Assembly (NCBI GenBank): GCA_034620365.1
Contig: JAQGEQ010000045.1
Coordinates: 434,001-498,000 of the forward strand
DNA from: Pegea sp. RAD2-039
Taxonomy: Eukaryota; Chordata; Thaliacea; Salpida; Salpidae
Length of the DNA stretch: 64,000 nucleotides
Direction of reading: 5' to 3'
Each line of letters starts with the position of its first letter. The first letter of the stretch is position 1. Shown in pieces: positions 6,890 to 52,700 of the stretch. The position numbers were made by a program, and so were the translations under genes. The notes under the pieces were generated by a model, which ran no database searches, had not been told where the DNA came from, and saw only the letters and a list, made by a program, of their open reading frames with translations.

Positions 6890-7919
6890 TCATCTTTGTT
6901 TCGAAAAACTTGGTACCATTAAGCGATGAACCAAACCGTTCATAGGTTTCTTTCCCCCTTTCTTAAATTTATTACTTTTCTTTTTTGCTTCGTTTACGGC
7001 CCATTCCATCCCTTCAAGGACCCCATGTCCAGTGACCGCACAAGAAGGCTGTACCATATAAGTACGTTGGTTCATGGACTCAAGTCCAAATCTATAAAAA
7101 GCCAAATTTGTCAGAATGTGTGTTTGCGGGAGGTGTCCTCTTTCGCATTTATTGTAATAAATAAATAAAAATAAGATCGAATTTTATGCAGAAGTATTAT
7201 ATATTTATTATTTATATTTATATGAAAAGGTTCTAAGTTTTACAATTTAGCATAATTTCAAATAACAATGATTCAAAAATGTAACATAAGAAAATAGGAA
7301 AAGAGATTAAAAGAACTGGCAGTTATATTTTAAACATAAGTTTATATTTACACTGTTTTGATTTCAGGTGCTGAAGCCACTTCTTCCATATCTTGTTTAT
7401 TTGCATAGATTAATAAAATACTATCATCCATCAATGGATCAGATAAGACTGCTGATAAAGCGTCTCTAGATTCTTCTAGCCGTTGTCTTGTTTAAAATAA
7501 TTTAAAAATTCCAAATTTTTATTACAGAATTTTATTCTATAATTTTATAAAAATAAAAAAATATTTTAACAATCAAAGAAAAAACTCACCTGTCTGAAGC
7601 ATCAATAATATAAACAAGAATAGAAATATTTACATAATAATTTTTCCACATTAATCTGATCTTTTCTTGCCCACCAACATCCCACATAGTTAAAACTGTG
7701 TCTTTGATCTAAATTTCATTTGCATAAAGCCTAAAAACGTTGCAAAATACATAAAGTAACCTATTTCACCTTTATAGATTCCATATTATATCCAATTGTT
7801 GGTATCATATCAATTTTTCGACCATTTTTTATTTGATATAGTAAAGTGCTCTTTCCTGCAGAGTCTAGCCCCAATATAAGGACTTTAAGCTGTTTTTCTT
7901 TTGATACTAAATTACCCAT
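6890..7919 (-). CDS. ARF-like small GTPase (ARL4/ARL11/ARL14-like)
   Basis: Four minus-strand exons (7770-7919, 7590-7708, 7352-7486, 6890-7091) give 201 residues in one frame. [10 protein letters not shown] supplies a Gly2 for N-myristoylation. The P-loop GLDSAGKS spans residues 17-24, IPTIGYN carries the switch I threonine, WDVGGQ near 59-64 is the switch II motif of ARF proteins, and ANKQDM is the base-recognition motif. The last exon starts at [20 protein letters not shown], matching the C-terminal ARF strand and helix. It then adds a basic tail rich in lysine, as in the ARL4 group. The family works as a GTP-dependent switch at membranes. Intron 3 contains a short LINE 3' end. Stopping at the in-frame TAA after exon 3 would lose the last conserved strand, so the four-exon model is preferred. 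Which ARL subgroup is uncertain. Confidence 0.9.
7100..7172 (+). mobile_element. LINE 3'-end fragment in an ARL intron
   Basis: About 65 bases ending in TTCGCATTTATTGTAATAAA and a TAAATAAA tail match the 3' end of the longer LINE fragment at 49640-49712, including the AGAATGTGTGT block upstream. The copy is inserted antisense within intron 3 of the ARF-like gene and is severely 5'-truncated, a usual outcome of target-primed reverse transcription. Confidence 0.65.
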
Positions 7920-18235: not shown

Positions 18236-18604
18236 TACATGATGACGTCACGTGATTTTGTATGATGACGTAATCTGATGACATCATCTGACTAACTGAA
18301 TGTTTTTCAACAGTTTATTATTCATTGAATAAAATCTCTGATTTACTAATTTTGTGTTGAATTTACTTTCTGTAAACCAATTATTTGTAAAAATACGTGT
18401 AAAAGATTGATTTTTAAAGTTTTTTTTGCACAAATATTTACTGGTTTAGCTTCAGGCTAAAAGTGATTAAACGTAGTTGTGGTATTCGAAGAACTTTTAA
18501 TAAAGTTAATAATTTTATTTTTTCTGAATGTTCGACGCTACATTTAACACTTTTCAAAATTTTTGGAAAGTTAACCACGAACATTTCATAGAAGAAATAA
18601 GTTT
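18236..18604. other. POLR3E 3' flank with CRE/E-box sequence
   Basis: Immediately after the stop, TGACGTCA (18243-18250) overlaps CACGTG, followed by a TGACGTAA near 18266 and TGACATCA near 18278. The rest is AT-rich, with AATAAA near 18327 as a likely polyadenylation signal. Confidence 0.5.
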
Positions 18605-18754
18605 TTTACTTTTAATTATAAATAATGCTGAAATTATTTAAAATTTTAAGTTTTCAAATTGAAAAAAGCTTCTTAATCATAAACTACTTGTAATAAAAGT
18701 ATGGTTTCATAGTTTTTTAATTTATTTTTCAGTAATATTTCAACTTTATAAACT
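18605..18754 (+). repeat. Inverted repeat C, left arm
   Basis: About 150 bases that return as a reverse complement at 20128-20275 at roughly 85-90% identity by eye. The best core is AAGCTTCTTAATCATAAACT followed by ACTTGTAATAAAAGTATGG. The two arms enclose the two-exon gene at 19311-19932. No terminal motif or target-site duplication identifies a transposon family. Confidence 0.8.
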
Positions 18755-18780
18755 ATTAAAAAAAAATTATATATGTTGTA

Positions 18781-19093
18781 ATTTGAAAGCTTATGTTCAA
18801 AACTCTTGGTTCCATTTTAGTAGGTGAAAGAGTCAAGTTGTTTTACTAATAATCATCTTTAATTTTACTAGGCAACACTTATATAATCAAATCGGGTTAT
18901 GATTTATTAGAATAACACCTTTTTAGACCTTTAATTAAACAAAATTTATAGGTTTTAAACATTCCAACTCTAGAAGTCAATCGATTTTTAATTTTATTAA
19001 TATGTCTTATAAAGAACCATTCAACAGCTTTAATAACGCAACAAATTATTATACAAACTTATATCGTATTGGCTATATTCTTAATTGATTAAT
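18781..19093 (+). repeat. Direct repeat D, copy 1
   Basis: About 313 bases that recur in the same orientation at 23578-23893 with only a handful of differences. The unit begins near TTTGAAAGCTTATGTTCAAA and ends near GGCTATATTCTTAATTGA. It has no open frame. Its high identity suggests a recent duplication. Confidence 0.9.
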
Positions 19094-19310
19094 ATAAATA
19101 TCCATTCGTTCAATTTTCGTCAAGACATCTAAAGTATCAGTAAATTTAAGAGAATTAATAATTTCCTTTTTCAAATTTTTAAAAGTTTTTGAAGAATTTC
19201 TGAAATTTATATTGAAACATAATTAAAACTAAAATTATTTTACATAAAATTTACTTTTAAATGTAATTTATATACGAACATAACTTGTAAAATATTATAC
19301 AACTTTAAAA

Positions 19311-19932: not shown

Positions 19933-20127
19933 TTTTTATTTTGAAATTACACAAATATTAAACTAACAAAAACTTCTCAAACATTAAAATTTCTTAATAA
20001 TCAAACTTACATTTGATTTTAAATCAAAATAATCCTGATGAAGACGCCCTTTATTATCTCACTATAGAGCTTATACCAATTAACTTTTGTTCCAATTTTT
20101 TCTTCAATAATTTCTTTTTTATAATAA

Positions 20128-20275
20128 TTTATAAAGTTTAAAGATTACTACAAAATAAAATTAAAAAATATGAAACCATACTTTTACTACAAGTAGTTTA
20201 TGATTAAGAAGCTTTTTTTAATTTGAAAACGTAAAAATTTTAAATAATTTTAGCATTATACTGAATAAAAGCTAG
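20128..20275 (-). repeat. Inverted repeat C, right arm
   Basis: Reverse-complement partner of 18605-18754. It starts about 195 bases upstream of the start codon of the enclosed minus-strand gene and ends about 140 bases before the left arm of the large trefoil palindrome. Confidence 0.8.
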
Positions 20276-20415
20276 AAAATTTTAGAGCATTATTTTGTTT
20301 GAATTTTCAGATAACAAATTTATTTATCATTTCCTAATTTGTAATAAAACTTAAAATCTATAAAATAGTACAACTGAGATATCATTTCAAATAATTACAG
20401 CTTTAAACGAGAAAT

Positions 20416-22953
20416 TTGATGTGGTTGCTTACAGGCAAAATAGTTTGTTTTCATCTTATTAAAAATAACCTTAAAGTAAGCTATGATTTTTAAATCAAAA
20501 GTTCATTTCAAATAAGTAAAACAGGTTTATATTTCCCATAAAATTTAAGTAAAAGTTATCTGATAATGAATAATAATTTAAAGATAATTTAAGTTTTCTG
20601 TCATCATAATAAAATAGTTTTAAACATTTTAAAAAACAAGCACCCACATTCATTGACATTTTTTTCCTTTTAAGTTCAATTAAAGTGACTTTACCCCAGG
20701 CTATTTCAAGGCTTTAAACAATTTTAACAAGCCAGTATTCTCTAGTTAAAGAAAGAGTATATAAAATAGGTATAAGCAGCATATCATGGTAGTTATATTA
20801 GTTTCTATTTTTATACTAGATTTTGTTATGTTCTAGAAGTAAATGTTTTTATATTCAACTTTGTTTAATTTAACATTTATTAAATGAGTTTTTCAAAGTT
20901 ATATTCGGAAGTAACAAATATTTAGTATCTGAAATACTCAATAACTGAATAACTAGACAGTTCTATAGATATATATTAGTAATCTATAATTACTGTGAAG
21001 TTGTTTATTTCTTAAACCTTTTGTACACTGGCATTTTAACTAGTTATCTCAGTAAATTTCGAATTTACGTCTAAACCATAGTATAATCTTTTCAATGTTT
21101 GTTGCAGTAACATTATAAAACAATTTTAAACATCAATTTGTTGGTTAAATAACTTCAAACGAATACTGTAAAAAATATCTTTTATTTAAATTATTTGAGT
21201 GTAATTCTGCATTTCAAATCATTTTTTTAATATTTATTCTATAAAAGGTTGTATCATATTAAAGTTTTTTTTTATTAGAAGGTTTTTCTTATAAGGTTAT
21301 CTGTAAAATGATTATTAAGTCTTTTCTTCTACTGTTTGTATGTATCTCTAATAGTTTTGGGATAAATCTGTATTGTAGAACTCCTCGGTTTCTTCGAAGT
21401 CCTTGCAAACGTTTTGAAATTATCCAAGTAGAAACACTCTGCTTAGCAAAGTAAGTAATTCAACTGATACTTAGGTAAGAAATATCTAAAATATTTTTAG
21501 AAGGCATTTGTGATTTTTCTACAGACCATGCTCTTATCACGCTCTTTCAAATCTTAGCACTTTTAAACATACTCCATTTACGATTAAATAAAAAATTTAA
21601 AAAAAACGTTATTTGTGATTTAGCATTCACTTAGTATTTAGCCTTAGGCTTGAAGTATTAGTAACATGATTTCAAATTTTTAGAGGTTGTTGTTTTGACG
21701 ACACACAATATGAAACACCCCTGAGATGTTATAAGCCAAGTACGTTTTACGATTATCATTTCTAATATTTATTTATTATTAATCTTGCAAAAGTTCAAAG
21801 GTTACTTTGAAGGTCAAAAGTTAAATCAGAAGAAAAAAATAAAAAAATAGAAAAGAAATTTGTAAAGAATTTTTTTATTTGCAACTCTATAAAATTGTTT
21901 TCTTACACAGGCGCCTCATTTCAATACCAACCGACAATACCTCCAAGTGCTTATGGAGCAGGTGAAATTATACATTTAGTAATTGCGATAATTCCAAAAT
22001 TATTTTTCAGAAATCAATAATTACCAAGGAAAGGTTTCTGGGACTTTGTTTAAAAGCTGTGCTTTTCCAATTAATAAGCCTTGTGGTAATTATTTTATAA
22101 CAAGGTATTGTTTATTTTTATTACTTTTAGTAAGTTTTAATTGCTAGCAAATACTTACTTATGAATTTGTTGAACTTTGAGTTCTAAATTATTTGATGGT
22201 TTCTCTTTACATTTCTCAGAGAGTCGTGCTTACGACAAGCTTGTTGTTGGGAAAATGGAAGATGTAAACAGTCCCTAATGTATGGTGAGTTTGCTTGAAA
22301 GAAAAAGAACAAAATATTAAATTAGAGTTTACAAGCTTTCCAAACAGTAATTAAATGCTCATATTAGCTTTTTTTTTTACAAAACTTCTCATTTAAAGAT
22401 TGAAGTTCCCAATTTGTACATCTTCACAAGATTTTTCTAACTTGAATAAATTGAAATTATAAAAAATTTTTTACTAATAGTTGTAAAGAACGAAGTTTAC
22501 GACCCCTGTTCTGGTAGTGTTTGCGCAGAAGGGGTATGTACTCCTGGAGGAAACTCTTATGTATGTGACTGTTCTAGCACAACTTGTTCTTTAGGGAGTA
22601 AGTCATCATTTGCTGATTTTTTTGATTTTGATTTATTTGTGATTTTAAGTTTTTTATTGAAAAAATTATCTCATCATTTGTCACTTTTCATTTCATTTCT
22701 TAATAATCAATCTGAAATACTTTTTGTAGCTTGTAGTATTGTTGACTTACCTAAATTAAGTGGTGGATATTGGAGTTATGGTGGAGTGACTACAATTTCT
22801 TTAGGATCCGATGTTAAATTCTTTTGTAACTCTGGTCTGCCTGCCTCAAATGACCCTGTCAGAAAGTGTGCGGCAGGTGGGGCCTATGACCCACCATTTG
22901 ATGATGGATCGCCCAACAACCCATCATGTGCTTAATCTCTAACTTTTTATCTT
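20416..22953 (+). repeat. Trefoil palindrome, left arm
   Basis: About 2.5 kb that returns as a near-identical reverse complement at 23897-26455. Outer edge: TGATGTGGTTG near 20418 pairs with CAACCACATCA near 26444. Inner edge: TGCTTAATCTCTAACTTTTT near 22930-22950 pairs with AAAAAGTTAAAGATTAAGCA near 23900. Differences are scattered small indels and substitutions, except for one dense patch in exon 4 of the enclosed gene. Confidence 0.95.
21308..22935 (+). CDS. Secreted trefoil-trefoil-EGF-CCP protein, copy 1
   Basis: Seven exons (21308-21450, 21684-21739, 21911-21961, 22011-22104, 22220-22284, 22481-22597, 22730-22935) encode 243 residues. Residues 1-18 (MIIKSFLLLFVCISNSFG) form a signal peptide. 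A P-type trefoil pattern follows: C23, C33, C45, C50, C51, C63, with the GCC triplet. A second trefoil-like set is C100, C108, C118, C123, C124, C130. An EGF-like module uses C146, C151, C156, C165, C167, C172. A CCP/sushi-like end uses C177, C208, C222, C242. The product should be extracellular. Trefoil proteins usually bind mucins or glycans, but the role here is unknown. The second trefoil has shorter end spacings than the canonical fold. This copy lies in the left arm of the palindrome, convergent with copy 2. It appears intact. Confidence 0.87.
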
Positions 22954-23577
22954 TGTACATACAGCAGTGCTTCAAATAAAATATGCTAAAACATATAATC
23001 CAAAGTTTTCCAAACATGAAACATCTTTTATTTTCGATGTGTCATAAAATAATCATCATCTTAAAATAATTATTGATCTATAATGAATTATATTTTAGAA
23101 ATACTTTCAACACACTTGCATATTAAAAACGACTATTTAATTTCAATGTTATTAATTTAATAAGTACTATCACTTAAAACCACGAAGTACATTGAAAGAT
23201 TTAACTTCGATTTATTTATTGTTCTATTTGCATTTAAGATTTAATATTTCATCTATATAAGAATTCACTAATATTTGTCATGTATATATTCTATTCGTAT
23301 ATTACATAGTACACTAATAATAAAAATAATTTCGCTATCATTCTTATTAGTTTTATAAACAAGATTAGAACATTGTGATTTAACCAGAAATTTCTATATA
23401 TCAGCCAATATACAACAAACCAGTAAATAGTTAAGATATTTCTGATATGATTTTTTAAATTCAAATTGTCCGGACTTATCAGGGCGAATAGCTCTTATAT
23501 AAAAGTAAATGAAATGAAAAATGCTTTTTATATTAATTTTTAACTTTCATTAAACATATTTTAATTGGAAAAGTTAT
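22954..23577. other. Palindrome spacer
   Basis: AT-rich DNA between the two palindrome arms, with the 3' ends of both trefoil genes pointing into it. AATAAA near 22976 is a likely polyadenylation signal for copy 1. No gene is seen. Confidence 0.5.
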
Positions 23578-23893
23578 AGTTTGAAAGCTTATGTTCAAAA
23601 TTCTTGGTTCCATTTTAGTATGTGAAAGAGTCAAGTTGTTTTACTAATAATCATCTTTAATTTTACTAGGCAACACTTATATAATCAAATCGGGTTATGA
23701 TTTATTAGAATAACAACTTTGTTAGACAATTAATTAAACCAAATTTATAGGTTTTAAACATTCCAACTCTAGAAGTCAATCGATTTTTAATTTTATTAAT
23801 ATGTCTTATAAAGAACCATTCAACAGCTTTAATAACGCAACAAATTATTATACAAACTTATATCGTGTTGGCTATATTCTTAATTGACTAATA
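23578..23893 (+). repeat. Direct repeat D, copy 2
   Basis: Second copy of the ~315-base unit at 18781-19093, same orientation. It ends within a few bases of the inner boundary of the right palindrome arm (23897), so its right breakpoint coincides with the palindrome junction. Confidence 0.9.
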
Positions 23894-23896
23894 TTT

Positions 23897-26455
23897 AAGA
23901 AAAAGTTAAAGATTAAGCACATGATGGGTTGTTGGGCGATCCATTATCAAATGGTGGATCATAGGCCCCACCTGCCGCACACTTTCTGACAGGGTCATTT
24001 GAGGCAGGCAGACCAGAGTTACAAATGAATTTAACATCGGATCCTAAAGAAATTGTAGTCACTCCACCATAACTCCAATATCCACCACTTAATTTAGGTA
24101 AGTCAACAATACTACAAGCTACAAAAAGTATTTCAGATTGATTATTAAGAAATGAAATGAAAAGTGACAAATGATGAGATAATTTTTTTAATAAAAAACA
24201 TAAAATCATAAATAAATCGAAATCAAAAAAGTCAGCAAATGATGACTTACTCCCTGAAGAACAAGTTGTGCTAGAACAGTCACATACATAAGAGTTTCCT
24301 CTAGGAGTACATACCCCTTCGTCGCAAACACTACCAGAACAGGGATCGTAAACTTCGTTCTTTATAACTATTAGTAAAAAAATTTTCATAATTTCAATTT
24401 ATTCAAGTTAGAAAAATCTTGTGAAGATGTACAAATTGGGATCTTCAATCTTTAAATGAGAAGTTTTGTAAAAAAAAAGCTAATATGAGCATTTAATTAC
24501 TGTTTGGAAAGCTTGTAAACTCTAATTTAATATTTTGTTCTTTTTCTTTCAAGCAAACTCACCATACATTAGGGACTGTTTACATCTTCCATTTTCCCAA
24601 CAACAAGCTTGTCGTAAGCACGACTCTCTGAGAAATAAAAAGAGAGACCATCAAATAATTTAGAACTCAAAGTTCAACAAATTCATAAGTAAGTATTTGC
24701 TAGCAATTAAAACTTACTAAAAGTAATAAAAATAAACAGTACCTTGTTATAAAATAATTACCACAAGGCTTATTAATTGGAAAAGCACAGCTTTTATAAA
24801 AAGTTCCAGACAATTGTTTTTTGTAATAACCAATTTCTGAAAAATAATTTTGGAATTATCGCAATTACTAAATGTATAATTTCACCTGCTCCATAAGCAC
24901 TTGGAGGAATCGTCGGTTGGTATTGAAGTGAGGCGCCTGTGTAAGAAAACAATTTTATAGAGTTGCAAATAAAAAAATACTTTACAAATTTCTTTTCTAT
25001 TTTTAATTTTTTTCTTCTGATTTAACTTTTGACCTTCAAAGTAACCTTTGAACTTTTGCAAGATTAATAATAAATAAATATTAGAAATGATAATCGTAAA
25101 ACGTACTTGGCTTATAACATCTTAGGGGTGTTTCATATTGTGTGTCGTCAAAACAACAACCTCTAAAAATTTGAAATCATGTTACTAATACTTCAAGCCT
25201 AAGGCTAAATACTAAGTGAATGCTAAATCACAAATATCGTTTTTTTTTAATTTTCTATTTAATCGTAAATGGAGTATGTTTAAAAGTGCTAAGATTTGAA
25301 AGAGCGTGATAAGAGCATGGTCTGTAGAAAAATCACAAATGCCTTCTAAAAATATTTTAGATATTTCTTACCTAAGTATCAGTTGAATTACTTACTTTGC
25401 TAAGCAGAGTGTTTCTACTTGGATAATTTCAAAACGTTTGCAAGGACTTCGAAGAAACCGAGGAGTTCTACAATACAGGTTTATCCCAAAACTATTAGAG
25501 ATACATACAAACAGTAGAAGAAAAGACTTAATAATCATTTTACAGATAACCTTATAAGAAAAACCTTCTAATAAAAAAAAACTTTAATATGATACAACCT
25601 TTTATAGAATAAATATTAAAAAAATGATTTGAAATGCAGAATTACACTCAAATAATTTAAATAAAAGATATTTTTTACAGTTTTCGTTTGAAGTTATTTA
25701 ACCAACAAATTGATGTTTAAAATTGTTTTATAATGTTACTGCAACAAACATTGAAACGATTATACTATGGTTTAGACGTAAATTCGAAATTTACTGAGAT
25801 AACTAGTTAAAATACCAGTGTACAAAAGGTTTAAGAAATAAACAACTTCACAGTAATTATAGATTACTAATATATATCTATAGAACTGTCTAGTTATTCA
25901 GTTATTGAGTATTTCAGATACTATATATTTGTTACTTCCGAATATAACTTTGAAAAACTCATTTAATAAATGTTAAATTAAACAAAGTTGAATATAAAAA
26001 CATTTACTTCTAGAACATAACAAAATCTAGTATAAAAATAGAAACTAATATAACTACCATGATATGCTTCTTATACCTATTTTATATACTCTTTCTTTAA
26101 CTAGAGAATACTGGCTTGTTAAAATTGTTTAAAGCCTTGAAATAGCCTGGGGTAAAGTCACTTTAATTGAACATAAAAGGAAAGAAAATGTTGAATCGGA
26201 GTGAACTTGATTTTCAAAATTGTATGTTTGAAATAAAGTTTTAAATAAAAACTATTTTATTATGATGACAGAAAACTTAAATTATCTTTAAATTATTATT
26301 CATTATCAGATAACTTTTACTTAAATTTTATGGGAAATATAAATCTGTTTTATTTATTTTAAATAAATTTTTGATTTAAAAATCATAGCTTAATTCAAAG
26401 TTATTTTTAATAAGATGAAAACAAACTATTTTGTCTGTAAACAACCACATCAAAC
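23897..26455 (-). repeat. Trefoil palindrome, right arm
   Basis: Reverse-complement partner of 20416-22953, carrying a complete second trefoil gene with all exon boundaries conserved. By eye the arms differ at only a few percent of positions, and introns are as similar as exons, which suggests a recent event or continuing gene conversion. Confidence 0.95.
23913..25538 (-). CDS. Secreted trefoil-trefoil-EGF-CCP protein, copy 2
   Basis: The minus-strand twin has exons 25396-25538, 25107-25162, 24886-24936, 24743-24836, 24563-24627, 24251-24367 and 23913-24118, each the same length as in copy 1, giving 243 residues. All trefoil, EGF and CCP cysteines are kept, as are the signal peptide and splice sites, so it should be functional. 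Against copy 1 the scattered changes are few: F to L in exon 3; A to D, G to R and L to S in the EGF exon; F to I and D to N in the CCP exon. The exception is residues 86-98 at the start of the second trefoil, where about half the residues differ. Its transcription would converge on copy 1. Confidence 0.87.
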
Positions 26456-42473: not shown

Positions 42474-43120
42474 GGTTTATTTAGAAAATGAATTTAGATT
42501 AATCAAAGATTTTAAATCAGTAACTATTCAATTTTTATTTTAAATGTAATGAAATTATCCTGGTTGCCAATTCAGAAGCTTCAATTATTTAAGTGAAAAC
42601 AGAAACCTCAAAACCAATTTCCTATCATTCAAATTTTATTTAATGTTTATATTAATCAAAAATCAGAAATTTGAACAACTTCAAAATATTATTTTTCTTT
42701 TTCTACTTTAGTTGAAAGTTGTCTTAAAATTTCCAAGTCTAGATAAATTTCTAATAATACAAATATTTTTAAGTATTTGTTTCATAAAGAACACTATATT
42801 AGTTTAAATTGTAGGTTTCTTTGGCTTATAATCAAAAAATGAACAACTTGTTGATGTGTTTAAATACTTTTAATTTTATAAACTACTCTAATTGTTGTTC
42901 CATTATTGCTATTAACATTATAAAGTTTTTTTTTAAATTTTGTTTTAATTAATTTCAGTGAAATATAAATTAGTAATTATCAGTGATGTAAACAAAATTA
43001 CAAAATATTTTGCAATTTGATAAAACTTTTTAATGTTTAATATTTTTTACATAATTTTCTTAAACTGTTTTCTTTTATATAGCTTTCATTTGGTTTAATT
43101 GCAAACTTTTTTTAGCTCAA
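42474..43120 (+). repeat. Kinase palindrome, left arm
   Basis: About 650 bases that return in reverse complement at 45653-46275. Matching landmarks include GGTTTATTTAGAAAATGAAT at the outer edge, TTGCCAATTCAGAAGCTTCA near 42565, and AAACTGTTTTCTTTTATAT near the inner edge. The arms are roughly 90% identical by eye with several small indels, older than the trefoil palindrome. No open frame lies in the arm. Confidence 0.9.
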
Positions 43121-44030
43121 AAATAATTTTTAGGACTTTTTAATGTCAGATATTTGCTAAAGAATTTTATTGATTATAATTTTTTTTATTGATTGATATT
43201 ATAACTTTCAAATGTAAGCTCAAAAACAGGTTTATTTCTAACTTAAACATAATTTTATTGTTTCGTTCACAGTTGTTTTAAAGTAATTGTTTATTAAAAG
43301 TATTTTACAAGCAGTGAGTCAGGCATATTCTATTTACTCTACTATTTCTATAAAATTAAGGTTTGTTTAATTCTAATAAATTCTATTTAAAAATTGTTGT
43401 AGCTTAAATATGTTTTTTTACAAATTTTACCATTAGTTTTATATTTCAAAAAATTTTGAGCAAGTAGTTAGCAATTTTAACGATAATAAGCAAATACAAC
43501 ATAATACTTGAAACACAATTTTTCAAACTTTCTAAATTTGTTGATTATTCACCAAACGTAAAATTAAAACGAATGATTTTTATTTAAAATTCTAAACATA
43601 AATTTATTCTTTTCAAACTCATATATCTAAATAAATAAGTAAAATTTGGTTTAAAAATGTTTTCTACAAAACTTATAAAACTTCAGATAAAGTTTTGAAT
43701 TATCTATAGAATTTTTACAAAAAGTTTTATATATATCAAACTAGATATTACAAGATGTTGACATGATAAAACTGTTACTAAATCGATCTTGAAATAAAAT
43801 GCTTTTCACTTTCAGTAACTCTAATTATTCAAACACTTTAGATTAAAAAACATTTCAGAAAAAAAGTTATTCAAAAATATTTTGTTGATAATTATAATAA
43901 TTTAGCTGGATAATTTGTACAAACTTAAATACAACTGTTAAAACTAAACACGGGTTTTAACTGCCATGTTTTCTGTTCTATCTAATTTAAATATATTCAA
44001 TTATATTTTTACAACTTAAGAAAAGATAAA
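43121..44030. other. AT-rich spacer upstream of the kinase
   Basis: AT-rich with no supported exon. It should contain the kinase promoter. ACTTAAG ends about 10 bases before the kinase ATG, a weak acceptor-like site. Confidence 0.45.
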
Positions 44031-44969
44031 ATGAATTTTGTTAAGTCTTCTAATTCGTCAAGATGTGGTAATAGAACAAGAAATCTTTGCAATAAAAATA
44101 TCGAATTACGATATGAGAGATTCAGTTTTCAACTGAAACAAAAAGATTTTGATGTTAAAAATCTTGTTCGTATCGGGATTGAAACTGATACCTCAATTGA
44201 TTTATATCAATTGAAAAAAGTTCAAATTATTGGAAAAGGGGGTTATGGAACAGTTTTTACTGCTATAGACTGTTCTACTAACAATCAATATGCTGTGAAA
44301 GTGATAAATGATTTAAAATATGAAAGATTTAAAGAAGAGGTAAAGCAGGAGTTAGAACTTGTAAAAGAACTGAATCATCCAAATATAATTAAAGTATATG
44401 ACTCTTTCATGACACCTAAGACTGGTTATTTAGTGATGGAAGCCTGTCTAGAGGGTGATCTGTTTTATCATATTACAGATTATTATCCTTTTAACAACAA
44501 CAAGATCAGATTATTTTCTTGGCAAATGGTCTCTGCTGTAAAATATCTTCATCATTTAAGTATTGCTCACCGAGATATCAAATCTGAGAACTTCCTGATT
44601 ACCAACGGAAGACTTAAGCTCTGTGATTTTGGGTTGGCAGGAAAGTTTCGAGATCGTTGCCTAGTAGGAATAGGAATAACAGAGTTTTCTTCCCCGCAAA
44701 TGATACAAAACAACTACGACCCTTTTAAAGCCGATATATGGGCTCTTGGGTGTGTCATATTTGAGTTGTGGTTTCTGATGCCCCCGTTTCTAAAGTGGAA
44801 GCTAAAAATTGCAGCTAAAAACTCAAAGATGCCAGAATTTGTGATTCCTAAGACGATATCATCAAGTTGTAGAGATCTTATGAAACATATGATTGAGTAT
44901 AAGGAAGAAAAGAGGTATGATATTGATCAAGTTTCTAACCATGAATGGTTCAGATGTGAAAGAGATTAG
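44031..44969 (+). CDS. Intronless Ser/Thr protein kinase (TSSK/CAMK-like)
   Basis: A single 312-codon frame with a complete protein kinase domain from about residue 60. The glycine loop is GKGGYGTV (68-75), the ATP lysine is Lys90 in YAVKVI, the helix C glutamate is in KQELELVKEL, and the catalytic loop is HRDIKSENFL (180-189). The metal-binding DFG is at 199-201, and DIWALGCVIFEL is subdomain IX. The activation segment ends FSSPQM instead of the usual APE. All catalytic residues are present, so it should be active. Overall form and lack of introns fit the testis-specific serine kinase group, whose members are often intronless, but assignment is tentative. The first ~55 residues are basic and unrelated to the domain. 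It lies centrally between the arms of an inverted repeat. Confidence 0.9.
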   Translation: MNFVKSSNSSRCGNRTRNLCNKNIELRYERFSFQLKQKDFDVKNLVRIGIETDTSIDLYQLKKVQIIGKGGYGTVFTAIDCSTNNQYAVKVINDLKYERFKEEVKQELELVKELNHPNIIKVYDSFMTPKTGYLVMEACLEGDLFYHITDYYPFNNNKIRLFSWQMVSAVKYLHHLSIAHRDIKSENFLITNGRLKLCDFGLAGKFRDRCLVGIGITEFSSPQMIQNNYDPFKADIWALGCVIFELWFLMPPFLKWKLKIAAKNSKMPEFVIPKTISSSCRDLMKHMIEYKEEKRYDIDQVSNHEWFRCERD

Positions 44970-45652
44970 TTGATAGCTAAAAAAGAAGATGATAAAAGAG
45001 GAGAATTCTGAATTAATAAATTTTACTTTAAGTGACTTTAATGGTTTTTGTTGAGATTTTGAATAAATCTTTTTTCAGTTAAAAGAAGTTTTCAAACAAA
45101 AACATTTTAATCTGTATATCTGAGTTTCTTGTTTGATTAAAACGTTTGAAGTTATTGAATCTGTAACAGAGTAATCACTAATATTTGAAGCAATGTTTAT
45201 TCCTGACTTATTTTAAATCACTTGACTTGTGAAATATTTTCAGGATATTTTAGGTTTTATTTTGTTTCTTTAACAAATTTCAAATATTACTGAAATCTTT
45301 CAAAATTTGATCTTCTCAAAACTTCCATCTTTACCTTTTTCATCATATTTACATTCGGTGAAAACTTATCACTAATAAAGCTTTTAATCAATTTTTAATA
45401 TTAGATTAGCAAATTAATTGTAATTTTCGATTTCTAAAATTTACACACAACATATATATATTACAACAATATATTTATAACATTTAAATAAGTTAATTTA
45501 AATTACAGATAATGAAAGTATTAAAGAAAAACAAATAAAAGATAAGAAATTTGTTTTATATAAATGAGATTAAATGAATTGAATTATAAATCTAAATATA
45601 GTAAAAAAATATTTTTAAACTTCTTAATAAATAAACTTATGTAAAATTATTC
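44970..45652. other. AT-rich spacer downstream of the kinase
   Basis: Holds the kinase 3' region: AATAAA-type hexamers near 45014 and 45062 are likely polyadenylation signals. Nothing else is recognised. Confidence 0.45.
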
Positions 45653-46275
45653 TTGAGCTAAAAAAGCAAATGAAAGAGATATAAAAGAAAACAGTTTAAG
45701 AAAATTATGTAAAAAATATTAAACATTAAAAAGTTTTATCAAATTGCAAAATATTTTATTTACATCACTGATAATTACTAATTTATATTTCACTGAAATT
45801 AATTAAAACAAAATTTAAAAAAAAACTTTATAATGTTAATAGCAATAATGGAACAACAATTAGAGTAGTTTATAAAATTAAAAGTATTTAAACACATCAA
45901 CAAGTAGTTCATTTTTTTATTATAAGCCAAAGAAACCTACAATTTAAACTAATATAGTGTTCTTTATGAAATAAATACTTAAAAATATTTGTATTATTAG
46001 AAATATATCTATACTAGGAAATTTTAACACAACTTTCAACTAAAGTAGAAAGAGAAAAATAATATTTTGAAGTTGTTCAAATTTCTGATTTTTGATTAAT
46101 ATAAACATTAAATAAAATTTGAATAAGGAAATTGGTTTTGAGGTTTCTGTTTTCACTTAAATAATTGAAGCTTCTGAATTGGCAACCAGAATAATTTCAT
46201 TACATTTAAAATAAGATTTTAAAAGTAACTAATTTATAATCTTTGATTAATATAAATTCATTTTCTAAATAAACC
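45653..46275 (-). repeat. Kinase palindrome, right arm
   Basis: Reverse-complement partner of 42474-43120. Together the arms and 2.5-kb spacer form a 3.8-kb unit centred on the kinase gene. No target-site duplication is evident at the outer edges. Confidence 0.9.
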
Positions 46276-48372: not shown

Positions 48373-49189
48373 ACTATCTGTAAATTTATCAAACTACTTA
48401 TTTGGTTTGTGTAAAGTAAAAAAATGAAGCTTGGAAAAGTAAGAATAAAACAACTCTTGCATAATAAATCTTTTATTGATCATAAGATATTCAATTTTTT
48501 CTCTCTCTATTAATCAAAGATACAAATTGATAATAATTTCAGTCTCAAGTATATACACTTTTTTTCTGCCCTTATTCTATGCCTCGCTGAAACAAATAGC
48601 TCTGCAATTTATGACAATAATAACTTTAGTTTCAAAACGTTTTCTCGAAATAACATATTGCACAAAGATCTTCTTTTGATCAGCTATTATCTTGCTTTAT
48701 TGGTTCTCAACAAATTATCTAACTACTTTTTTAAAGATTAACAAAAAGTTTCCAATACTTTTCTTGAAGTTTTAAGTGTTCCCAAGGCATCATAATTGGC
48801 TTCAATTTCCATAGTGATATTTTGCATACTGATGACAAGCTCCAAGTATGACGCAGTTTATATACTGGCTTTGCTATTTATCTTGCTAAAACATTAAAAT
48901 ATCATGTCTAAGCATAACAACTTTTGTTTATGAATGGATGATATTATCGAAAGAAAAATATAAAACTGTTAAATATCTGGAAATTTAAAAATATTTTCTT
49001 TAAAATTTGTAGATAAGTTGTGTGTTTAAGCGACAAAATCAAACAAAAAAAACTTCAGTTGTTTTGACTTCAAGTTGAAAATTTGTTAATATTAAAGGTA
49101 AATTTTAAGTGAAGTACTAAGAAATTAACCTTTATACAAAATCAATTTGCATCTAATTCTTATGAAATAAAAATAAAACTTTAATATGA
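48373..49189. other. Intergenic with a short open frame
   Basis: The minus-strand frame 48738-48827 reads MQNITMEIEANYDALGTLKT and stops after 29 codons. A TATATAAA lies about 30 bases upstream of its ATG, and composition is coding-like. It may be an exon or a tiny gene, but no family is recognised. The rest is AT-rich. TTTACAG ends five bases before the SSUH2-like start. Confidence 0.3.
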
Positions 49190-49715
49190 CTTAATTCTTA
49201 TTTTTAAGATTATCCACAGTTTAGTTGACCTTCAGTTTGATGATTTCTTTTCCATTAGTGCTTTCCTCAAGTTATATCAGCTCAGACGACACATATTACA
49301 TCTTAATAAGCCCATATTACCTAATAATCTAGTTATATCTACTATATCTACTATATCACCTGGTTCATTAGTCAGAGCAAATTTTTTCTCATACCGCACA
49401 ATTAGTACATGTAATCAGCTGCCATCAGATATTGCCATGTCAGAATCACTCGCGTTGTTCAAGCAGAAGTTGAACCGTTTTAATATTACCAGCATTATCA
49501 TTTCTAAGCTATGATTTTTTTTCTCTTTTTTATATTATTAGCAATCTATGTAATTGTTCACTGTTATATGCTTTGAGTGATATCGAAATGCCATGTGTTA
49601 CATCTTTTACCTTCTATATTTCTAACTTAACAGATGTTATTGGTGAGAATGTGTGTTAGCGAGAGGTACTCTCTTCAGGTACCCTCCTTCGCATTTATTG
49701 TAATAAATAAATATA
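49190..49715 (+). mobile_element. 5'-truncated LINE, 3' end with RT C-terminus
   Basis: The frame running to the TGA at 49512-49514 matches the end of a CR1/L2/Jockey-type reverse transcriptase ORF. HSLVDLQFDDFFSI comes first, then FSYRTISTCNQLPSDI and ALFKQKLNRF, the usual W/CNxLPxxI and F+xxL signature of that region. A ~200-base 3' untranslated part follows and ends TTCGCATTTATTGTAATAAA plus a TAAATA tail. The reverse-transcriptase core and endonuclease are absent. The surviving frame is open over about 105 codons, so the insertion may be fairly young. A second copy of the 3' end is in the ARL intron at 7100-7172. Confidence 0.8.
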
Positions 49716-52700
49716 ATTAACAAAATTTGATACTTACTTCTAGGCCAACTAAGCAATTATCCATTTTCGAAATTTCTCGTGAGTATTTCAAAACATTTTA
49801 AGTTTGTTTGAAAGTTAAATGTTAGAAATTTAAGAAACTGAATTATACCTATATTTTTTATAAGTTATAATTATTTAATTAACTTCTTGTCTAAATGTGT
49901 AGCAATTTTAAAATAAATTGAATATTTTAAAGAGTAATCATGTTTACATTTAAGCTTTAAAAACAACTTTTTTTTTGACATTTAAGTTTTGAAAATGTTA
50001 TTCAAAACTTTGTTTAGGTTTTGTTAACTAAAGCATGAATAACTATTAAGATATTTATTATTTATTTAGAAGGAAATAAATCTATTTACAACTGATAAAA
50101 GCTCTTTAGAGAAAGTTATTCTTCTATTGTATTAAAATGTGTGTATTTATCTTAGTTTTATATTTAAAATTTTAGTTTTTTATAGGTTAAGTAATTAATA
50201 GTTTGATTAATTGATTATTCAAATTAGTATTTTTGCTAATAACTTTATAAGTTAAAGTTAAATGATTAAATTTTTATTTTTTAACAGTCTTTGTTATTTT
50301 CTTAGAGATTGAAGTTAATTTCTAATTCTAACATAAATTAAATTTGTCTATATTAATAGTTGTGTAGATAAATACGGAATTTGATATTTAATATTTTCAT
50401 AATCTGGTTTTTCTTGATATTAGTTTATAGATTAATTTTCAGATAGTACTTTCAATAAAAGAAAATATAATTATTATAATTACAGGCACAAATATAATAC
50501 ATAAATTTGTATAAAACGATAATTTAGAGATATCGATTTCAAAGAATTGAAGAATGAAGTATGAGAAAGTTCATAAATCAAGAAAAAGGTAAAAAATCAT
50601 TTAAGTATAAATTCTAATCTTTATCAATGGTCATAAAAAGTTTGTGATTTTTAAAGTTTATGGAAAGCAAATTATAAACTGATTTCTTTATTTATGGATC
50701 TTATCTTTTAAAATTTATGGTGATCAGCAGAGTTATTAATTTCCTTGTTTAATATATAATTATCCATTTCTAACTATGATAAGTTTAATCTGTTTATTTT
50801 CCAATTGTATAATCGTTCATTTAAATTTATTAATATAATATTTATTTGTCAATTTTTAATATATATAATCAACTTTAATTGATTTATATTTACAAAATTA
50901 AAACAAATATGGAAATAGTAATTAATTGTTTCTTCTATTAGTAGAAAATAGTTTCCAGAAGAACCAATACCAATTTCTCAGCATATAACTGGAGTTATTA
51001 TAGTTTGTTCATTTTGTTGATAATCTGAAAAGCCAATGAAGAAAACAATAATTAAAGCTTGTAAATCAAAATCTTGTTGCTATTGATGTTGATGTAAAAG
51101 TGAAGATTAGAACAAATTTATTATAAAACAAGTTAAGGTAATTAACAATTCTACAAATAGTATTTTTAACTGTTTAGTATGTAATAACTTATTAGATGTA
51201 TCTATAAATAAAGTTTTATTTTTAAACTTCTTGTTTATTACTTCATAACCATAACCATAGGAAATATTCATGTTTATTTAGTGGATAATTCTGTTTAAGA
51301 TTATTTATAACTTAATGTTTAAATGATTCATTTTTCACAAACCAAATTGTTTGCAGGATTTATGCTTTGTTGAATCAAAACACATTTCTGTGGTTATTCA
51401 ACTGGCAAAAGATTAAAGTTGAAAAACAACAGAGGAAATACTTCTGGTATTCTATAAAGGAGTCCATAGAAACATACTTTCGGTGGAGAGGTTACAAGAA
51501 AATATTTTGACAAAAAACGATTGTGGTCGATAAGAAATATTCGATTTGAAAAACCTCTAGAGACAAAAGTCTAAAGTTGACATTTGATGAAATGAATTTC
51601 AAATAATTTTCTTCAACGAATTGATTTACTGATGCAGATTTCGCTCTAAATTGCTTCTAACTCAAAATTTTATGTTTTTATTAAAAGATTTGTTGAAAAT
51701 ACAAATTCATTTTGTGATTAGTTTCTGATTCTAATTTTTGGCATTTTGCTGAAATTAAAATTTTGTTGTTTAATGCTGGACACTTAATTTTATACAATGA
51801 TTAGGTTAAAATGGAATTTGATGAGAATGGCCTGAACATTTATATTTTGATTTAATTAAACAATAAAGTTAAAAGATAATTTGTTTCTAAAAATGATAAA
51901 AATTTTTAGATTTCAAAAAGTTGTTTATTTTTTAATTTCTAAAAAGGTTAATAGAAGTGAATTTAAGATACTATGTATAATATTTGTATAATTTGGATAA
52001 GTAAGTTTGTAGCACTTTAAAATTTTATTAAGTAGGTAAAAATAAATCTTCTTAACATTTTTCATTTAAATCTTATCGGGAATTACAATTCCTTTTTTTA
52101 AATATTTAAACTTTAATACTATCTTTAATATATATAGCCGTTCACGGGTTAAGCAGGCCTTTTCATTATCATTAAATTAAAAAGCATTTTTGGAATTGAA
52201 ACAATCTTATTCAACATCTGATGCAGATAATAAATCATAGAATTGATGACCTCAAAATGGCTATAAAGAACTAAAAGTAGAAAGATCTTAAAAGCCACAA
52301 TTGAATAGAAAAATTGGAACAAGAAGAAAATGCCGATATTTATGTTAAGGATTGTAAAAAAATGAATTAAAGAAAATGCCACCTATTAACAAAATTACTC
52401 AAATCATTTTCTTTTTATGAAATTTATTTTTAATAACAGAATTCTTTATAGTAATAAAGTCGGAAAGATTTTAATCCTTATTAAAAATGCTAAAAACTTC
52501 CCGGATATCAGTAAAGTTCAACGGACTTCTGAAAACAAAAAAAAATCGTTAGGGAAATATTAAAATGATTAATTTTTAGTGTAAAATTTTAAGATGTTGT
52601 AAAATTGCTCAAATATAAGTATCTATATAACTTTCATTTCTGATTACATTATTTTGAGTATTTTCGTTGAAGACATTTTAGTTGTCGGCAAATTATTACT

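Follow-up and report, generated by a model that had tools for sequence, protein, structure and literature searches.

Inverted pairs of paralogous genes have been described in several animals. In Caenorhabditis, two such pairs (F44E5.4/F44E5.5 and the HSP16 locus) lie divergently or convergently around a short spacer and have similar intergenic arms. Their active maintenance has been inferred from several species; of three that were compared, all have the divergent pair in like form, and HSP16 is degenerate in C. briggsae (Zhao et al. 2007, PMC1803023). In Capitella teleta, close Dlx paralogues stand tail to tail with a mosaic identity that is confined to the homeobox and the adjoining intron and was read as gene conversion; the same paper also names Drosophila Hsp70, amylase and trypsin pairs (PMC3199776). 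Mammalian X and Y ampliconic palindromes are described as gene-bearing inverted repeats around a spacer with a size above 10 kb and an identity above 99% (PMC8981503, PMC5997626). In parthenogen assemblies, 19 palindromes were counted in the bdelloid Adineta vaga and zero in each of three further bdelloids, counts that are said to contain false positives from misassembly (PMC7953838). Here, a stretch of 64,000 nucleotides from Pegea sp. RAD2-039 (Salpidae; GenBank assembly GCA_034620365.1, contig JAQGEQ010000045.1, positions 434,001 to 498,000, forward strand; the window, in whose coordinates all positions are given unless a contig is named) is analysed, in which two homologous genes, A and B, occupy the arms of a palindrome. 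The inverted gene duplication looks genuine. With slightly better than even confidence, the pair is interpreted as having arisen from a probably functional gene by local inverted duplication, its mosaic history being most likely due to patchy gene conversion.

In the assembled sequence, the palindrome is real (Table 1). It is the dominant inverted pair in a self-comparison of the window, and its arms align as reverse complements with 2462 of 2560 columns identical (96.2%). Of the other columns, 67 are substitutions (among 2529 aligned bases) and 31 are gaps. The BLAST E-value of arm against arm is 0, so the match is not due to chance. Both the inner and the outer arm ends pass abruptly into unrelated sequence. 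The near-identical arms around a spacer reported by an earlier sequence-only reading of this DNA are thereby borne out, as is its description of one seven-exon gene per arm with equal exon lengths, an open frame and intact splice sites: the exons measure 143, 56, 51, 94, 65, 117 and 206 nt in both copies (stop included), GT-AG borders flank 6/6 introns in each copy (12/12 overall), and both frames run from an ATG through 243 codons to a stop without internal stops. The genes are convergent, tail to tail. The likeness of the arms ends 13 bp past the stop codon, with about 890 bp upstream of the ATG common to both, so that a common upstream region has been kept and the 3′ end is separate in each gene. 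The likely poly(A) signals, AATAAA 40 nt after the stop in gene A and, in gene B, ATTAAA 80 nt and AATAAA 116 nt after it, sit in mutually unrelated sequence.

Table 1 Features of the palindrome and its surroundings in the window.
Feature	Position	Strand	Description
Palindrome arm A	20415..22948	+	Gene A with about 890 bp of upstream flank and 13 bp beyond the stop; 96.2% identical to arm B
Palindrome arm B	23900..26454	-	Reverse complement of arm A
Spacer	22949..23899	.	951 bp, between the 3′ ends of genes A and B
Gene A	21308..22935	+	Exons 21308-21450, 21684-21739, 21911-21961, 22011-22104, 22220-22284, 22481-22597, 22730-22935; probable product 243 aa
Gene B	23913..25538	-	Exons 25396-25538, 25107-25162, 24886-24936, 24743-24836, 24563-24627, 24251-24367, 23913-24118; probable product 243 aa
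Divergent block, gene A	22015..22050	+	Early in exon 4, in the linker that precedes the second trefoil-like part; differs from gene B at 14 sites
Divergent block, gene B	24797..24832	-	Counted from the exon-4 start at 24836
Outer end of arm A	20415..20720	+	16/303 substitutions (about 5%); badly aligned stretch near 20621-20662
Stretch X	18775..19095	+	Direct copy of 23573-23894
Stretch X′ (part of spacer)	23573..23894	+	96.6% direct copy of stretch X (18775-19095); 5 bp away from arm B
Inverted piece	18599..18765	+	86.3% to 20115-20282; ends about 10 bp before X
Partner of 18599-18765	20115..20282	-	About 168 bp as an inverted pair; lies shortly upstream of arm A

With reverse-complement arms around a spacer and a whole homologous gene in each, the locus is an inverted paralogous gene pair, and it fits the known kind represented by Caenorhabditis, Drosophila and the Capitella Dlx genes. 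As in the Caenorhabditis pairs, homologous genes lie in opposite orientations around a short spacer, with similar intergenic arms; unlike in those pairs, one exon block diverges far more than the introns, and the comparison here covers one genome rather than three (PMC1803023). The tail-to-tail placement and mosaic identity recall the Capitella Dlx genes, but identity here extends over nearly the whole arm, and it is the divergence that is confined, to the exon-4 block and the outer end (PMC3199776). The likeness to ampliconic gene palindromes, proposed from the sequence earlier, proves loose: both carry genes in inverted repeats around a spacer, whereas the arms here are 2.5 kb long and 96.2% identical, short of the published >10 kb and >99% (PMC8981503, PMC5997626), and the genes are not known to be sex-linked or expressed in the germ line.

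The sharply bounded divergent block in the coding sequence is the sole feature of the pair that is out of the ordinary. Its 14 differences span 36 bp of exon 4, and none of 5000 shuffles (0/5000) places 14 substitutions within 45 bp. The proteins of genes A and B differ at 15 residues, 8 of which fall in the block. Elsewhere, substitutions number 16/303 in the outer 5′ flank, 5/587 in the inner 5′ flank, 17/894 (1.9%) in introns and 14/682 (2.1%) in exons outside the block, compared with 14/50 in the interval 22011-22060. The earlier statement that introns are as similar as exons is partly right: it stands outside the block and fails with it included, since the coding sequence as a whole then differs at 28/732 sites and the noncoding at 38/1785 (Fisher P = 0.019). 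Even without the exon-4 block, substitutions remain overdispersed (P = 0.0012), with the outer end standing out. The arm alignment, suggested earlier as a check on divergence, thus confirms the high identity but not an even spread, and since the divergence is patchy, a single recent event followed by even mutation is insufficient as an explanation. Within the block (codons 85-97), changes amount to 3.5 at 8.0 synonymous sites and to 10.5 at 31.0 nonsynonymous ones; as synonymous change is as high as nonsynonymous, amino-acid selection alone is insufficient, and the segment looks older in its history than the rest.

In the favoured account, a complete gene with about 0.9 kb of upstream DNA would have been copied in inverted orientation beside itself. 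Stretch X′, a 321-bp direct copy lying 5 bp from arm B, would fit a multi-step copying process with template switching better than a simple flip. The surroundings are themselves rearranged: nearby pieces are copied in both orientations with junctions a few bases apart, a pattern that we take to resemble template-switching rearrangement. The divergences of X/X′ and of the inverted 18599/20115 pair differ (P = 5.7e-5), so the inverted pair is the older of the two, if rates are alike. None of these four pieces has a match elsewhere in searches of the own genome, which covered 105.7 Mb with simple repeats and very common words skipped. As to which copy is ancestral, every order of events considered leaves some breakpoint coincidence. 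The patchy divergence would have built up afterwards, to about 1.7% in the bulk of the arm and about 5% at its outer end, with 14 differences gathered in 36 bp of exon 4. Patchy conversion may either have homogenised older arms, sparing the block and the outer end, or have brought in the exon-4 block from a third homologue. The two copies would then produce proteins that share their first trefoil-like domain and differ in the linker leading to the second. A gene for the RNA polymerase III subunit RPC5 lies upstream.

Several observations weigh against this account. Once the block and the outer 306 bp are removed, the remaining 37 substitutions in 2178 bases (about 1.7%) fit an even spread (variance P = 0.087; longest run P = 0.55), so that most of the arm is explicable without conversion. 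The arm halves differ (12/1190 against 25/988, P = 0.007), at a split picked post hoc. The guanine-cytosine (GC) content of the noncoding arms is 0.230 and 0.226, compared with 0.228 in the spacer, 0.221 in the left flank and 0.277 in the right flank, and the noncoding arms show no rise of the kind that biased conversion might leave. No donor word of at least 13 bp for the block occurs elsewhere in the window on either strand; its words of 11 and 12 bp are few, as chance gives in AT-rich DNA. No third homologue that might have donated the block was found in own-genome searches with the arm or with the protein: the arm returns 2 matches, the two arms themselves, and the protein, at E up to 10, returns 14 matches, all inside the two copies. 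The synonymous argument for the history of the block depends on 8 sites. Constraint on the coding region outside the block appears marginal, with 7.5/537 nonsynonymous against 6.5/153 synonymous sites changed and a P of 0.02 or 0.10, depending on the rounding of half counts.

A single recent inverted duplication without conversion, with the exon-4 block formed by a burst of diversifying selection or by one complex mutation, is regarded as somewhat unlikely. It agrees with the single age of about 1.7% shared by most of the arm, with the concentration of residue differences in the block, and with codons 98-243, where replacements accumulate at close to the silent rate (6.5/341 nonsynonymous and 2.5/97 synonymous sites). 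It does not account for the block's synonymous sites, whose change amino-acid selection alone would not give, for the lack of a template of at least 13 bp in the window from which a complex mutation could be drawn, or for the outer arm end, which is more divergent too. Rather doubtful is an old palindrome with arms continually homogenised by arm-to-arm conversion save for a selected 36-bp block, in which the two genes would encode two specificities of one secreted recognition protein.

Both copies are probably functional and still protein-making, to judge from their coding sequences. Over the whole coding sequence, nonsynonymous divergence (dN) is 0.032 and synonymous divergence (dS) 0.065. 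Codons 1-84 look constrained, the changes numbering 1 at 196 nonsynonymous sites and 4 at 56 synonymous ones (Fisher P = 0.009). An open frame is by itself weak evidence of function: after 28 simulated random substitutions, the frame stays free of stops in 27% of runs, and splice dinucleotides would be left untouched by chance with a P of about 0.63. The lack of coding indels is somewhat better evidence, as none is observed where the noncoding rate predicts 2.9 (P = 0.057). The product of the stop-free, indel-free and splice-intact probabilities is about 1%, with independence assumed. The earlier description of the pair as functional rather than dead is thus plausible but only moderately supported. 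That one copy is a pseudogene in decay, its disabling change still to come, is quite unlikely; the simulated frames and the weak constraint outside codons 1-84 are compatible with it, whereas the missing indels, the complete set of GT-AG introns over both copies and the near absence of replacement in codons 1-84 oppose it.

The protein is small, cysteine-rich and probably secreted, judging by its sequence, with an N terminus that by eye resembles a signal peptide in both copies. The cysteine pattern includes a CC pair, as in trefoil (P-type) domains. The trefoil family PF00088 matches residues 25-66 with 21.4 bits when an N-terminal piece is scanned (the last residues of that query were mistyped, outside the match) and with 19.2 bits in each whole protein, the cut-off being 21; the second trefoil-like part, scanned alone, scores 18.1 bits against the same cut-off. 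The sushi/CCP family PF00084 matches exon 7 alone with 21.4 bits (cut-off 20.7), whereas whole-protein scans at E up to 1 report none. A PDB search yields one match, a CCP protein at E = 0.13, and the single-sequence fold of exon 7 is unusable, with a predicted local distance difference test score (pLDDT) of 40.9. An EGF-like domain is unsupported, hEGF alone being listed, at 12.8 bits against a cut-off of 29.3. The proposed make-up of two trefoil domains, an EGF and a CCP is accordingly supported in part: as a reading of the cysteine spacing it may be a fair sketch, in which the first trefoil and the CCP reach their Pfam cut-offs when scanned apart, the second trefoil stays below and the EGF-like domain finds no support. 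By analogy with trefoil and CCP relatives, a secreted role in binding glycans or matrix is a guess.

Regarding a second gene of like make-up, the 24 trefoil matches and the 150 listed sushi matches in the genome share two contigs, where the nearest pair lies 134 kb apart. The sushi matches are the 150 scored of 638 candidates, and neither set shows genes A and B themselves, so that genome-wide uniqueness of the make-up is a weak claim. A literature search, judged by titles and the openings of abstracts, returned no work on a make-up of trefoil, EGF-like and sushi domains. Among the eight trefoil loci compared (of the 24 matches), the best tblastn match is a multi-trefoil locus (L008, G000:C21:2388278-2389362). 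The region around it (G000:C21:2386778-2389894) holds a long open repeat frame with some units nearly identical. Genes A and B differ from this region in that it would also encode these repeats, which resemble thrombospondin type 1 by their motif.

An assembly artefact, in which two haplotypes or a fold-back read were joined as a false palindrome, is quite unlikely. False palindromes arising from erroneous scaffolding are a stated risk, and most of the arm diverges by about 2%, in the range of the allelic divergence of 2.4% given for Adineta vaga (PMC7953838). A simple fold-back, however, gives neither an unlike spacer of 951 bp nor a direct X/X′ piece with a divergence of its own, and the arm ends break sharply into unrelated sequence. 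Alleles so different within one 36-bp block would also be unusual, in our judgement.

Many transposons end in inverted repeats, and on that ground the arms might be the long inverted ends of a mobile element; a second inverted pair, around a kinase frame at 42474-46275, also speaks for this. This origin is extremely improbable: the arms contain a whole multi-exon gene, and no mobile-element domain appears in the Pfam scans of the two proteins, no wider transposase search having been made. A dispersed repeat or transposon was rejected as a candidate because arm, spacer and left flank gave no match beyond the locus in searches that skip simple repeats and very common words. Short-word blastn and tblastn of the region 16-30 kb for a degraded third copy gave weak, chance-like matches only. 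In the 104 kb around the palindrome, two inverted repeats have arms above 500 bp, the palindrome itself and the one at 42474-46275; four more inverted matches, weaker or shorter, have lengths of 136-330 columns, and three of these pair copies of a dispersed repeat. Two arbitrary 40-kb stretches of the same genome contain no inverted repeat of at least 100 bp at E 1e-8, these controls totalling only 80 kb and the window having been selected for its features. GC content is 26.1% in the window and 27.9 and 30.2% in the control stretches.

The second inverted repeat (42474-43130 and 45643-46275) is 92.8% identical over 657 columns and encloses a protein kinase frame at 43986-44969, open over 327 codons. 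A relative of this kinase occupies a single open frame at G000:C18:1125171-1126016 with 74% DNA identity, and the only match to the arms elsewhere in the genome is short, covering 72 bp of C1 at about 80%. A dispersed repeat family is present at 49180-49724 and 7105-7174 of the window and at about 505.9-515.6 kb of G000:C14 (L039, L040), its copies being 69 to 90% identical and in both orientations. One control stretch (L048, G000:C21, about 1034352-1035171) holds direct repeats overlapping at short offsets, resembling a tandem array.

Inverted pairs in which both copies are intact are natural material for testing the pace at which duplicates diverge and the extent to which conversion holds them together. 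With the introns alike and one coding block not, relatives could discriminate between conversion that spared a segment and import of the block. If the pair is ordinary, it still gives a compact animal genome a clean, small case of a gene duplicated locally in inverted orientation. If instead the block is under selection, the palindrome would be keeping the gene alike everywhere except in a variable segment.

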